Source of the DNA: a virus
Strand: one strand, 5' to 3'
Length of the DNA: 36,293 bases
IMG/VR virus record: IMGVR_UViG_3300047276_000260
Coordinates: 1-36,293 of that record
The notes below the pieces were generated by a model. It had not been told where the DNA came from. It saw only the letters and a list, made by a program, of their open reading frames with translations, and ran no database searches. Below, in pieces: positions 21,131 through 25,351 of this stretch (its first letter is position 1; each line of letters begins with the position of its first letter). A program made the translations under genes and the position numbers.

Positions 21131-22447
21131 ATGCGCCACTACCTCGAACAATCCGTCTACGACGCCGCTATCGAGCGGCTGGATTTCATCTTTCAGCACT
21201 TCACCCGTGTCTACGTCTCCTTCTCTGGTGGCAAGGACAGCGGTGTTCTCCTCAATCTCGTTTGCGACTACGTGCGAGAGCGCAAGCTGCCGATCAAGAT
21301 TGGCGTCCAGATCATGGACAACGAGGCCAACTACACCCACAGCGAGGAGTTCATGCATCGCATCCTCCAAGCCAACCGGGACATCCTTGACATCTATTGG
21401 TGCTGCCTGCCCATCACGCTTCCCTGCACCGTCAGCTCCTACGAGATTGACTGGCAGTGCTGGGGTGAGCAGGATCGGCACCGCTGGATTCGCCCCATGC
21501 CGCAGCAGGATTACATCGTCAACCTGCAGAACCATCCTTTTGGCGACCTGTTCATGGAGAACATGGACTACGCCACCTTCTGGGACATGTTCGCGGAGTG
21601 GTACAGCCAAGGAGAGCCCTGCGCCAATCTGATCGGCATCCGCACCGTTGAATCGCTCAACCGGTTTCGGGCCATCCTGAATCAGGACAAGGAGACCATG
21701 CTCGGCCGCATGTGGACCAAGAAGAACACCGATCACACCTACAACTGTTATCCCATCTACGACTGGCGAACGGAGGATATCTGGACCGCTAACGCGAAGT
21801 TCGGCTGGGATTACAACAAGCTCTATGACGTGTTCTATATGGCTGGCATTCCCATTAAAAAGATGCGGGTTGCCTCGCCCTTTATGTCAGAGTCCAAATC
21901 AAGCCTGGCGATGTACCGGGTAATTGACCCGCAGGTATGGGCCAGGCTTTGCGCCAGGGTCGGCGGTGCAAACTTCATGGCCACCTATGGCAAACAGCTT
22001 GACTACAAATCCTTCAAGCTGCCAGCAGGCCACACATGGAAATCATTTGTGAAGTTCTTGCTGGCCACGCTGCCAGATCAATCCAGCGCAAATTTTAAGC
22101 AGCGCTTCATTCAGTCAATCCGTTACTGGGGCCGAGTGGGGCGCGGTCTTCCTGAGTCAATCATTGATGCGCTTAGCCGTATCGGCATTCGTTTCTACAT
22201 CAATGGCACCACGCGGCATGGCGGGAACAATCTGCGCCGTGTTGTGATCAAGGTGCCACCTGATCATCTCGATGATCTGCCGTGTCACAACAGCATGGTC
22301 ACATCGTGGAAGCGCTTTGCCATCACGGTTCTAAAGAACGACCACACCTGCAAGTATCTGGGCCTGGCGCCAACGCAAGAGCAGCAGCGCCGCCAGAAAT
22401 CAATCCAACGTAAGTACAGCCAAGTCCTCAACCGGTCCGCTAAATGA
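21131..22447 (+). CDS. IbrA-like PP-loop protein (DUF3440, PAPS reductase family)
   Basis: A 438-residue protein. Residues 28-40 carry V-S-F-S-G-G-K-D-S-G-V-L, the ATP-pyrophosphatase (PP) loop of PAPS reductases and related AMP-forming enzymes. Further characteristic elements are I-M-D-N-E-A-N-Y, W-C-C-L-P-I-T-L, L-I-G-I-R-T-V-E-S, the W-R-T-E-D-I-W motif and a C-terminal part with H-N-S-M-V-T-S-W-K-R-F typical of DUF3440. E. coli IbrA belongs here and works with IbrB; its biochemical activity is not settled in my knowledge. It would activate a substrate by adenylation, perhaps for sulfur transfer. It is coupled by ATGA to the next gene. Confidence 0.85.
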   Translation: MRHYLEQSVYDAAIERLDFIFQHFTRVYVSFSGGKDSGVLLNLVCDYVRERKLPIKIGVQIMDNEANYTHSEEFMHRILQANRDILDIYWCCLPITLPCTVSSYEIDWQCWGEQDRHRWIRPMPQQDYIVNLQNHPFGDLFMENMDYATFWDMFAEWYSQGEPCANLIGIRTVESLNRFRAILNQDKETMLGRMWTKKNTDHTYNCYPIYDWRTEDIWTANAKFGWDYNKLYDVFYMAGIPIKKMRVASPFMSESKSSLAMYRVIDPQVWARLCARVGGANFMATYGKQLDYKSFKLPAGHTWKSFVKFLLATLPDQSSANFKQRFIQSIRYWGRVGRGLPESIIDALSRIGIRFYINGTTRHGGNNLRRVVIKVPPDHLDDLPCHNSMVTSWKRFAITVLKNDHTCKYLGLAPTQEQQRRQKSIQRKYSQVLNRSAK

Positions 22448-23385
22448 AGATCCTCAACACCTCACAGCTTCCAGCTGATCGCATTGTCAACTGCCCAAAG
22501 GGCGGTTTCACCAGCCATCGCTTGCTCACGGAAGACGACGGCATGGGATACAGCATGACTAAAACCATCGTGCATCCTGGCAAGCCGCACCGCTGGCACT
22601 ATCAGCATCACCTTGAAACGTGCTACTGCGTCAGCGGCAAAGGTCTGCTGATTAACGAGGCAACCCAAGAGATCCACGCCATCGCGCCTGATGTGACCTA
22701 TGTGCTGGACAAACATGATCCCCACAGTTTTGAAGCCCTAGAGCCCACCACCTTGATTTGCGTATTCAACCCACCCCTCAAAGGAGATGAACTGCATGAC
22801 GAGAACGATTCATACCCTTGGCGATCCCCGGTCTACTCCGTACGAAGTATTCCTATCGAGAAGGTTACCGCCAATGATTACAACCCCAACTCTGTGGCGC
22901 CGCCTGAAATGGCGCTACTCGAAACATCCATCTGGGAAGACGGTTACACGCAACCTGTCGTTGTCGTGCATGATGCCGAGCGTGACCTTTATGTGGTCGT
23001 TGACGGTTTTCACCGTTATCTGACTCTGAAGAATAGCCAGCGCATCCGCGAACGCGAAGGTGGCCGCCTCCCAGTTGTGGTGCTGCGCAAGGAGCTGCAC
23101 GACCGGATGGCTTCCACCATCCGTCACAACCGCGCCCGTGGTTCGCACAACATCGAACTGATGAGCGTGATCGTTGCTGAGCTAATTGAGATGGGCAAGG
23201 GTGACGCATGGATTTGCAAGCACATCGGCATGAGCCCTGATGAGCTGTTGCGGCTTAAGCAAGTCACCGGGTTGGCGTCGCTGTTCCTTGGTAAAGATTT
23301 CAGCAAGGCATGGGACGTGGATCAGATCGACAACATCACGGAGGATCTCGAACGTGAAGCTCAAGAGGATCTGGTTGCCCATTGA
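22444..23385 (+). CDS. Ectoine synthase-like cupin fused to IbrB/ParB-like domain
   Basis: A 313-residue fusion. Residues 1-125 follow L-ectoine synthase (EctC) almost end to end: L-L-T-E-D-D-G-M-G-Y-S, W-H-Y-Q-H-H-L-E-T-C-Y-C, V-L-D-K-H-D-P-H, C-V-F-N-P-P-L-K-G and E-L-H-D-E. By recall of the EctC structure its iron ligands are Glu, Tyr and His, here E58, Y86 and H94, and the substrate pocket residues Y53, H56, C106, F108, E116 and H118 are also kept. Residues 130-313 are IbrB/ParB-like: P-I-E-K-V-T-A-N-D-Y-N-P-N and V-V-V-D-G-F-H-R-Y with the ParB/sulfiredoxin D-G-x-H-R motif, then an R-H-N-R-A-R-G helix and an HTH-like C-terminus. Full ectoine genes (ectA, ectB) are absent. No such fusion is known to me. 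Confidence 0.85.
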   Translation: MKILNTSQLPADRIVNCPKGGFTSHRLLTEDDGMGYSMTKTIVHPGKPHRWHYQHHLETCYCVSGKGLLINEATQEIHAIAPDVTYVLDKHDPHSFEALEPTTLICVFNPPLKGDELHDENDSYPWRSPVYSVRSIPIEKVTANDYNPNSVAPPEMALLETSIWEDGYTQPVVVVHDAERDLYVVVDGFHRYLTLKNSQRIREREGGRLPVVVLRKELHDRMASTIRHNRARGSHNIELMSVIVAELIEMGKGDAWICKHIGMSPDELLRLKQVTGLASLFLGKDFSKAWDVDQIDNITEDLEREAQEDLVAH

Positions 23386-23779
23386 CGCCTGGGAGGAGAT
23401 CCACTTCAACATGTGGGGCGATGTGCCAAATCGACGCATTGCCCTGTATCGCGCACAGATCTTCACCGGCAATCACCGCCTCTATGGGCGCTACATGCAG
23501 CGGGTCACCATCGAGTGGCCCAACAGCTGCATCAATGCATTAACCGACTACAACCTCAACCGCAAAGCATGGATCGGCCACGCTGCCTGCGCCCTTGCCT
23601 TGCGATGTCCTGAGGACATTACCCGCCAAGCATGGGGACTTCTGACAGATGAGCAACGGACATTGGCGAACCGACAAGCGGATCGAGCCATTCGCGCCTG
23701 GGAGATGCGCTACCGCGAGAGTCTCGGAATACGTGCGGACGTGGAAAGCCCGCTGTTATTCGCACGAGATTCCCGATGA
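23354..23779 (+). CDS. Conserved partner of IbrA/IbrB cassette, unknown function
   Basis: A 141-residue product with GTG start at 23354, preceded by GGAGG about nine bases upstream and overlapping the previous gene by 32 bases. The sequence has K-R-I-W-L-P-I-D-A-W-E-E-I, N-M-W-G-D-V, E-W-P-N-S-C-I-N-A-L-T-D, N-R-K-A-W-I-G-H-A-A-C-A-L-A and R-A-I-R-A-W-E. I recall similar proteins behind IbrA-type genes of phages, so it likely belongs to the same functional unit. It is helical and tryptophan-rich, without recognised catalytic residues. Confidence 0.75.
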   Translation: MKLKRIWLPIDAWEEIHFNMWGDVPNRRIALYRAQIFTGNHRLYGRYMQRVTIEWPNSCINALTDYNLNRKAWIGHAACALALRCPEDITRQAWGLLTDEQRTLANRQADRAIRAWEMRYRESLGIRADVESPLLFARDSR

Positions 23780-23981
23780 CGTGCCAGCCAAAGTTGCAGC
23801 GTCAGGCCGTGCGCCGTCGTGGCGTGCAGTAGCAGTGGCATTGCTGCAGAACGATTTGCATCTCTATCAGCTTGGCTATGCACGCCCTGCATACGACCAG
23901 CAACGCCGCGCTGTGACCATGGCGCAAATCGCAATGCATGGTGCGCCCGCAGATGGCACGCAGTTGGAGTTGCCGCTGTGA
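23733..23981 (+). CDS. Small fourth gene of the IbrA/IbrB cassette
   Basis: An 82-residue product. A GTG at 23733 gives a start directly before R-T-W-K-A-R-C-Y-S-H-E-I-P-D-D-V-P; an ATG at 23649 would overlap the previous gene by 131 bases and adds low-quality sequence. It continues R-A-P-S-W-R-A-V-A-V-A-L-L-Q-N-D-L-H-L and ends T-Q-L-E-L-P-L. It overlaps the previous gene by 47 bases and the helicase gene by GTGA, so it is translated in the same unit. Function unknown. Confidence 0.65.
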   Translation: MRTWKARCYSHEIPDDVPAKVAASGRAPSWRAVAVALLQNDLHLYQLGYARPAYDQQRRAVTMAQIAMHGAPADGTQLELPL

Positions 23982-25351
23982 ACCTTCGCGCCTACCAACA
24001 ACAAGCCATAGCCGATACACGCGATGCAATCAGTGTCGGCTCACGTGCGCCGCTGCTGGTACTGCCCACCGGCGGCGGCAAGACTTGTATCTTCTCCGCC
24101 ATCGCCCAATCGGCCGCGGCCAAGGGCAACCGCGTGCTGATCCTTGTGCATCGCCGTGAGCTGATCCACCAAGCCAGCAGCAAGCTCCAATGGATTGGAT
24201 TGGATCACGGCATCATCGCCGCAGGCATCCCGCCATCAGATGCACCAGTGCAGATCGCATCCGTGCAAACGCTCGCCCGCAGGCTGCCCCGCATGGATTG
24301 GCAGCCGGGACTGATCATCATCGATGAAGCTCACCACGCCACAGCAGGCCAATGGGCGCGGATCCTTGAACACTGGCCCAATGCTTACCGGCTGGGTGTC
24401 ACAGCAACGCCATGCCGCTTGGATGGTTGCGGCCTGCGCAGTGCCTTCGATGCCATGGTGCTCGGCCCGTCAGTGGCCGATCTGATCTTCACCGGCTACC
24501 TATCGCCCGCACGCATCTATGCACCCCCAGTCGTTGCTGATCTGCAAGGCATCCGCTCCCGTGGTGGCGACTACGCCAACGATCAGGCCGCGGCCGCCAT
24601 GGATCGCCCAACCGTTACCGGCGATGCCATCGCGCATTACCAGCGTTTAGCGGCAGGCCAGCAGGCAATCGCCTTCTGCTGCAACGTAAAGCACGCTGTC
24701 TCAGTGTGCGACGCATTTAAGACAGCTGGGATCACCGCTGAACTGCTGCTAGGTGGCACGCAGTACCGTGATCAGGTAGTGGCAGACTTTGCCGCTCATC
24801 GCACCCGCGTTCTGGTCACCGTGGACGTGGTGAGCGAAGGCTTTGATGTGCCAGCCGCCAGCTGCGCCATCCTGCTCAGGCCAACGCAATCGCTCGGCCT
24901 CTACCTGCAGCAGGTGGGCCGTGTGCTGCGGCCAGCGCCCGGCAAAGACGCGGCGATCATCTTGGATCACGTCGGCAACGTGCTGCGCCATGGCTTCCCA
25001 GATGACCCACGGGACTGGTCACTTGATGACCGTATGCGGCGCACACGTGGCACACCAGCACCATCTGTCCGCACATGCCCTGAATGCTTCGCAGCGTTCA
25101 AGCCCGCGCCGATCTGTCCGGTCTGTGGCGCACAATGCCAACCAATCAAATCACGCAAAATCCAGCAGATCGCGGGTGAGCTGCAGGAGTTGAAGCGCAC
25201 CGCCAAGGTCATTCAATTTGAGGAGCGCCACGAACGCCGCACTGAAGTCGGCCGCGCACGCACCCTGGCTGATCTGCTGATGGTCGCCAAGAATCGCGGT
25301 TACAGTCCGGGCTGGGCGTACCGGATCCATCAGGCGCGTGGCCAACGCTGA
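23978..25351 (+). CDS. Superfamily 2 DEAH helicase
   Basis: A 457-residue protein. The GTG at 23978 (M-N-L-R-A-Y-Q-Q-Q-A) overlaps the previous stop codon and begins at the usual Q-like motif. Motif I L-P-T-G-G-G-K-T is at 29-36, motif II I-I-I-D-E-A-H-H at 113-120, motif III V-T-A-T-P near 145, and motif VI L-Q-Q-V-G-R-V-L-R-P near 325. A zinc ribbon with C-P-E-C and C-P-V-C-G follows near 365-385. The architecture is that of phage UvsW/RadD-like translocases, which unwind branched DNA in replication, recombination or repair. Next to primase, nuclease and RecET this is a replication-recombination enzyme. Confidence 0.9.
   Translation: MNLRAYQQQAIADTRDAISVGSRAPLLVLPTGGGKTCIFSAIAQSAAAKGNRVLILVHRRELIHQASSKLQWIGLDHGIIAAGIPPSDAPVQIASVQTLARRLPRMDWQPGLIIIDEAHHATAGQWARILEHWPNAYRLGVTATPCRLDGCGLRSAFDAMVLGPSVADLIFTGYLSPARIYAPPVVADLQGIRSRGGDYANDQAAAAMDRPTVTGDAIAHYQRLAAGQQAIAFCCNVKHAVSVCDAFKTAGITAELLLGGTQYRDQVVADFAAHRTRVLVTVDVVSEGFDVPAASCAILLRPTQSLGLYLQQVGRVLRPAPGKDAAIILDHVGNVLRHGFPDDPRDWSLDDRMRRTRGTPAPSVRTCPECFAAFKPAPICPVCGAQCQPIKSRKIQQIAGELQELKRTAKVIQFEERHERRTEVGRARTLADLLMVAKNRGYSPGWAYRIHQARGQR

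Follow-up and report, generated by a model that had tools for sequence, protein, structure and literature searches.

A fused EctC-IbrB gene in a tailed-phage genome was found to be one member of a tightly linked five-gene cassette, ibrA-ectC-ibrB-X-Y, that occurs in many unrelated phages, and the full explanation that we regard as best, with slightly better than even confidence, is that the fusion is a subunit of this cassette in which EctC acts as a catalytic cyclodehydratase. The cassette is conserved and co-inherited, its EctC retains an intact metal site and the hydroxylase EctD recurs within it. The five genes probably build an ectoine-like ring for a purpose other than salt protection, perhaps the decoration of DNA. 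The window, meaning the whole 36.3-kb stretch of DNA that was analysed, is a tailed-phage record with terminase, portal, major head, tail, lysis and replication genes. An earlier sequence-only reading of it had described the fused gene by itself; the unit analysed here is the five-gene cassette, whose features in the window were as follows.

21131-22447, + strand: ibrA, 438 aa, PP-loop ATP pyrophosphatase/PAPS-reductase-like protein with DUF3440
22444-22821, + strand: EctC-type cupin domain, residues 1-126 of the fusion (Ectoine_synth E 4.9e-37; PRK13290 above cut-off; TM 0.93 to 5bxx)
22507-22509, + strand: Phe22 codon at the EctC Trp21 position, with Trp in 0 of 137 cassette EctC
22594-22596, + strand: Trp51 codon, with Trp in 133 of 137 cassette EctC and 0 of 29 bacterial EctC
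22615-22617, + strand: Glu58 codon, Fe ligand (EctC Glu57), 137 of 137 cassette EctC
22699-22701, + strand: Tyr86 codon, Fe ligand (EctC Tyr84/85), 137 of 137 cassette EctC
22723-22725, + strand: His94 codon, Fe ligand (EctC His92/93), 136 of 137 cassette EctC
22822-23385, + strand: IbrB part, residues 127-313, ParB/sulfiredoxin fold with a predicted helical, HTH-like C-terminal part (phrog_2159 E 2e-77)
23002-23016, + strand: DGFHR motif, IbrB residues 187-191, with D187, G188, H190 and R191 at least 97% conserved in IbrB with and without EctC
23354-23779, + strand: gene X, 141 aa, all-helical, GTG start picked from homologues
23649-23981, + strand: gene Y, 110 aa, resembling the IbrA C-terminal end (DUF3440)

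The fusion gene (22444-23385, + strand) was a single ATG-initiated open reading frame of 313 aa with no internal stops, and its start overlapped the ibrA stop by 4 nt. The earlier description of an EctC cupin joined to an IbrB/ParB-like domain was upheld as both halves were matched by profiles, and a search for the same fusion elsewhere, which that reading had proposed, recovered it in 80 distinct EctC loci including the isolated Mycobacterium phages Gaia and Nebkiss. The independent copies in many metagenomes and in cultured phages rule out the assembly error that had been raised. An assembly artefact or a decaying gene fusion is therefore extremely improbable; nothing favored it apart from the existence of EctC and IbrB as separate genes in other loci, and both halves were under strong purifying selection with median dN/dS values of 0.054 for EctC and 0.012 for IbrB. 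The statement that no EctC-ParB fusion had been described stood in so far as no paper was found, but GenBank already labels Gaia gp104 (KJ567043) an 'ectoine synthase/ParB multidomain protein'.

Residues 13-126 of the fusion matched Pfam Ectoine_synth (PF06339) with E 4.9e-37 and 127.5 bits (cut-off 27). The window protein scored 135.8 bits with the NCBIfam ectoine synthase model (PRK13290, cut-off 128) and the Gaia EctC copy fell just under that cut-off at 118 bits. The EctC sequence of PDB entry 5bxx matched the window cupin (E 1e-25), and the AlphaFold2 cupin model, with block pLDDT values of 78-96 over residues 1-110, superposed on 5bxx with a TM of 0.93 at 1.3 A, in agreement with the EctC identity first proposed for this domain. 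The model of the whole fusion was confident in the cupin and moderate in the IbrB part. A generic cupin identity was rejected on the basis of the Ectoine_synth score and the 5bxx superposition, the Cupin_2 score of 22 bits being far lower.

Active-site residues named from the sequence alone were also found at their EctC positions. The iron ligands Glu58, Tyr86 and His94 correspond to Glu57, Tyr85 and His93 of Sa-EctC (PMC6344544, PMC4795551), the pocket residues at 53, 56, 106, 108, 116 and 118 to Sa-EctC Tyr52, His55, Cys105, Phe107, Glu115 and His117, and the pocket Trp thought to be replaced is Sa-EctC Trp21, which is Phe22 in the window. Equivalents of Ser23, Arg25, Thr40, Tyr52, His55, Glu115 and His117 were invariant or nearly so across the 137 cassette EctC. 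The Trp21 column of the same proteins was mostly Phe, with Gly in members two residues shorter, many of which had a Phe nearby. Full conservation of Trp21 has been reported for the EctC of ect clusters as well as for orphans, with a shift of two positions in some (PMC6344544), and Ala variants at this position retain 9.7-26% activity (PMC6344544, PMC4795551). Trp51 and Phe96 were specific to cassette EctC, and Cys60/Cys62 were common to cassette EctC and most sampled orphan-type bacterial EctC (e.g. ACYC).

Cassette EctC formed one clade (support 99) apart from all sampled bacterial EctC, orphans included, in a tree that was made by a quick search of only 133 columns with 71 cassette EctC left at 82% identity. 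The cassette form is like EctC (PF06339; 5bxx, 5onm) in its fold, Fe ligands, most substrate-pocket residues and the C-terminal lid residues Glu115/His117, but differs in the absence of Trp21, in its own Trp51, Phe96 and clade, and in a phage cassette context with frequent IbrB fusion and no ectA/ectB. Orphan bacterial EctC are similar to it in having no ectAB, in the Cys60/Cys62 signature of most and in the altered Trp21 region of several, although they lie on the opposite side of one tree branch from the phage clade and have other neighbor genes. Judged by its conservation cassette EctC is predicted to be a working enzyme, and from the conserved catalytic set together with the altered Trp21 and the separate clade a related reaction with a different substrate is predicted. 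Orphan EctC genes on Streptomyces plasmids (L402:2477-2851 and L406:2447-2821) were clustered with trpA-like, AMP-binding, carrier-protein and indole-glycerol-phosphate-synthase-like genes, which is another hint of EctC-type enzymes in other pathways.

The C-terminal part of the fusion was matched by the ParB-like family phrog_2159 (E 2e-77), while the ParB_N match (E 1e-4) was under the cut-off. The D-G-F-H-R motif reported earlier was present at 187-191 and stands where ParB box II has a GERR-type motif. Helices were placed by AlphaFold2 at 237-249, 254-261 and 265-275, which weakly suggests a helical, HTH-like C-terminus. Unlike the ParB CTPase clamp involved in segregation, the IbrB part had no canonical GERR box II and scored 18.6 bits with TIGR00180 (cut-off 58.45). 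SerK, SbnI and sulfiredoxin are more similar in being ParB-fold enzymes with a DG-x-HR-type motif, over which SbnI aligned, but IbrB was far under the SerK (13.6 bits, cut-off 380) and SbnI (13.3 bits, cut-off 350) model cut-offs and its catalytic residues are only putative. The window IbrB was 48-68% identical to phage IbrB from Streptococcus, Lactobacillus, Flavobacterium and others and reached 84% identity with IbrB of other cassettes. A single group-specific residue separated IbrB with EctC from IbrB without it, and IbrB, being nearly unchanged, reads as a shared platform.

The window IbrA matched Pfam DUF3440 (E 4.6e-54), PAPS_reduct (E 8.5e-9) and phrog_2302 (E 6e-109), carried the motif SGGKDS and had no meaningful match in a PDB sequence search. 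It belonged to a single clade (support 100) made up of the IbrA of EctC-positive cassettes, which were 69% identical among themselves and approximately 42% identical to IbrA from EctC-less loci. Twenty-seven residues were specific to this group, several of them beside the conserved D63/E65/Y68 near the PP-loop site; such residues result from shared ancestry and do not by themselves imply that the chemistry is different. As EctC and IbrA each formed one clade, EctC travels with a dedicated IbrA. From these sequence comparisons IbrA, EctC, X and Y seem to have specialised together around the common IbrB platform, partly just through shared ancestry.

IbrA and IbrB of E. coli are activators of the eib genes and alter gene expression (PMC6008420, PMC7649339), and E. 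coli ybdN/ybdM have been annotated with the same domains (PMC9068703). No paper was found on the biochemical function of IbrA/IbrB. The cassette proteins are like this pair in IbrA domain make-up, with IbrB 60-73% identical where EctC is lacking, whereas EctC-less ibrAB loci usually have no X or Y, an IbrA of another clade and often a SNF2-type ATPase upstream. The SNF2/DEAD-type ATPase gene in EctC-less loci was directly upstream of ibrA, often with a 3-4 nt overlap, forming a helicase-ibrA-ibrB unit (L086-L104, L105, L106, L111, L112 and L118). The isolated phages Amjad_SA and Mwe-JY13 carried ibrA, ibrB and X without EctC. A Campylobacterales contig had a possible GNAT acetyltransferase-like gene with a weak Pfam match between ibrA and ibrB (L108:7579-7998).

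Protein scans identified 142 distinct EctC loci, a count that still contains close relatives and includes two bacterial ectB-ectC loci kept as controls. Nearly all were the five-gene cassette, with 130 complete cassettes (ibrA, ectC, ibrB, X and Y) that were all co-directional and occurred in eight gene orders. Of the distinct loci, 80 had the EctC-IbrB fusion and approximately 57 had EctC as a separate gene, for example in Pseudoalteromonas phage XCL1123, L085 and L089, and some of the separate genes were not adjacent to ibrB. The reported absence of ectA/ectB from the window record was confirmed and extended to every cassette locus, and an ectoine operon was ruled out on this basis. No constant further partner was found, the flanking families recurring in at most 8 of 72 EctC-positive loci and helicases adjoining the cassette in five of the 72. 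Within the window a ResIII/DEAD-type helicase gene (23819-25351) overlapped the end of gene Y. GIY-YIG-like endonuclease genes were located within the cassette at L082:8890-9264 and L077:2532-2854 (Gaia/Nebkiss gp105 and an IMG/VR contig) and are apparently selfish inserts, and an extra ParB-like protein with DGFHR was encoded between ibrA and ectC at L316:3887-4959.

Gene X was located downstream of ibrB in 86 of 87 EctC-positive loci and in none of 26 EctC-negative loci of the first locus set, in which Y was present in 83 of the 87 EctC-positive loci. The AlphaFold2 model of X, folded from an alignment without three phage-collection rows and without L276, was all-helical with a pLDDT of 93. 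X was not matched with confidence by any entry of Pfam, PHROGs or PDB, and its sole match in a viral-structure search was a 59%-identical protein, probably the XCL1123 homologue. Y was matched weakly by DUF3440 (E 0.046) and by phrog_15645 (E 5.5e-4), and was found in a search with the IbrA C-terminus.

An ectoine-hydroxylase-like gene of 282 aa, with an EctD structure match of E 8e-44, was located between ibrA and ectC in L189, where one fused protein also had a methyltransferase-like domain (L189:5367-5867) inserted between its EctC and IbrB parts. The full cassette of L410 likewise had ectD between ibrA and ectC, and the short contig L084, which belonged to a metagenomic bacterial bin, had EctD directly after EctC-IbrB. 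No EctD was present in the window. Scans of 2.9 million viral contigs with two patterns identified EctD in two only (L189 and L410), both with the cassette; one pattern, ETWH[SA][QE]D, fitted all bacterial EctD examined and the scan was thus not limited to cassette-type EctD. Given approximately 220 cassette contigs among the 2.9 million, we infer that both would carry the cassette by chance at about 1 in 10^8. Scores with the TIGR02408 ectoine-hydroxylase model (cut-off 336.5 bits) were 371 bits for L084, 285 for L410 and 173 for L189, and the WHSDFETWH signature was kept in the L410 and L189 proteins. The L084 EctD shared 64-65% identity with the nearest bacterial EctD but only 33-40% with those of L189 and L410, a contrast that suggests separate acquisitions. 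The presence of EctD favors a catalytic EctC that makes an ectoine-type ring over a sensor, and such a ring is most likely the product of cassette EctC.

We infer catalysis, the ring type and the roles of IbrA and IbrB as follows. EctC would be a metal-dependent cyclodehydratase that closes a cyclic amidine of the ectoine type, with something other than free N-gamma-acetyl-diaminobutyrate as its substrate. The PP-loop protein IbrA would activate or couple this substrate with ATP, IbrB would bind nucleotide and, via its HTH-like end, the target, and X and Y would be accessory subunits, with EctD- and methyltransferase-type tailoring added in a few cassettes. Against this explanation are the replacement of Trp21, which is important in EctC, and the occurrence of EctD in just three cassettes, the window having none.

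The earlier reading had offered three options, of which a host-derived substrate fits in so far as the substrate is not made by ectA/ectB, while a small-molecule sensor gating the ParB-like domain is disfavored. A protein working as a nucleotide switch, or as a transcription factor under ligand control, would suit the physical fusion in 80 distinct loci and the activation of eib genes by E. coli IbrA/IbrB (PMC6008420, PMC7649339), and fusions of ParB folds with other domains, some of them regulatory, are frequent (PMC12704722). This is unlikely given the separate EctC of approximately 57 loci, at times away from ibrB, the invariance of the whole catalytic residue set, the EctD and methyltransferase tailoring enzymes and an IbrB that hardly changes with EctC. 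Synthesis of ordinary ectoine from host N-gamma-acetyl-diaminobutyrate, or of hydroxyectoine with EctD, as an osmotic-stress auxiliary metabolic gene is rather improbable. The EctC fold and metal site and the three EctD genes, one above the equivalog cut-off, would suit it, a solitary P. syringae EctC can make ectoine (review PMC5924519) and viral ectoine synthase has been listed as a stress gene in one study (PMC13079714), but Trp21 is missing in 137 of 137 cassette EctC, and osmolyte synthesis is made unlikely by the lack of ectA/ectB and by near-obligate linkage to ibrA, ibrB, X and Y, none with a known role in ectoine synthesis.

It is quite improbable that the cupin is hydrolytic and opens a cyclic amidine or strips a host mark as counter-defence. 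We know of no cyclic-amidine defence mark, and the EctD and methyltransferase companions suggest building rather than removal. The phage setting would be consistent with such a role, and with glutamine-derived ADPC and with ectoine analogues EctC catalyses reversible or hydrolytic reactions, but hydrolysis of ectoine by EctC is negligible (Witt 2011, as cited in PMC5924519).

The least certain part of the catalytic cyclodehydratase explanation is the target of the ring, for which DNA or a nucleotide is a possible, tentative assignment by analogy. The combination of ParB and PP-loop chemistry and the SNF2 ATPases beside EctC-less ibrAB point in this direction, as do the HTH-like end of IbrB and the effect of IbrA/IbrB on E. 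coli gene expression. ParB-superfamily ATPases and PP-loop/PAPS-reductase-like enzymes recur together in Dnd/Dpd DNA modification as DndC/DndB and DpdB (PMC12839542; PMC12704722), and the cassette resembles these systems in that a ParB-superfamily protein is paired with an enzyme of the PP-loop or a related type. It differs from Dnd in that the window IbrA scored 20.6 bits against a DndC model cut-off of 290.4, and no cysteine desulfurase or TGT gene was identified among the cassette genes. The rarity of adjoining helicases among EctC-positive cassettes counts against a DNA link. It is possible, but less likely than not, that the cassette attaches a cyclic amidine (tetrahydropyrimidine) of the ectoine type to phage DNA or to a nucleotide; IbrA would then activate and couple an N-acyl diamino acid, EctC would close the ring, EctD or a methyltransferase would decorate it in some phages and IbrB, X and Y would present the DNA. 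If true, nucleic-acid hypermodification would gain a new class.

The literature searched, which did not extend to most subscription journals, was found to describe neither the fusion nor the five-gene cassette nor its association with EctD, and the main text of the 2025 ParB-fold fusion survey makes no mention of cupin, ectoine or IbrB (PMC12704722). A basal EctC group exclusive to Mycobacterium abscessus has been reported (PMC5924519), and M. abscessus prophages carry a PAPS-reductase-like gene and a cysteine-dioxygenase-like (cupin-type) gene (PMC8092301); these may be related to the cassette. The fusion as such is already on record in GenBank and the cassette is a variant of IbrA/IbrB loci, with a real chance of categorically new chemistry.

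Phages, prophages and plasmids widely carry IbrA/IbrB pairs, and a cassette that ties EctC, and three times EctD, to them provides a concrete chemical hint on the function of IbrA/IbrB and on the role of solitary EctC. The cassette is present in the cultured phages Gaia, Nebkiss and XCL1123. An 'ectoine synthase' in an estuary virome was read as an osmotic-stress gene (PMC13079714) and could be this cassette. Calls of viral ectoine synthase in viromes may reflect the cassette rather than salt protection.
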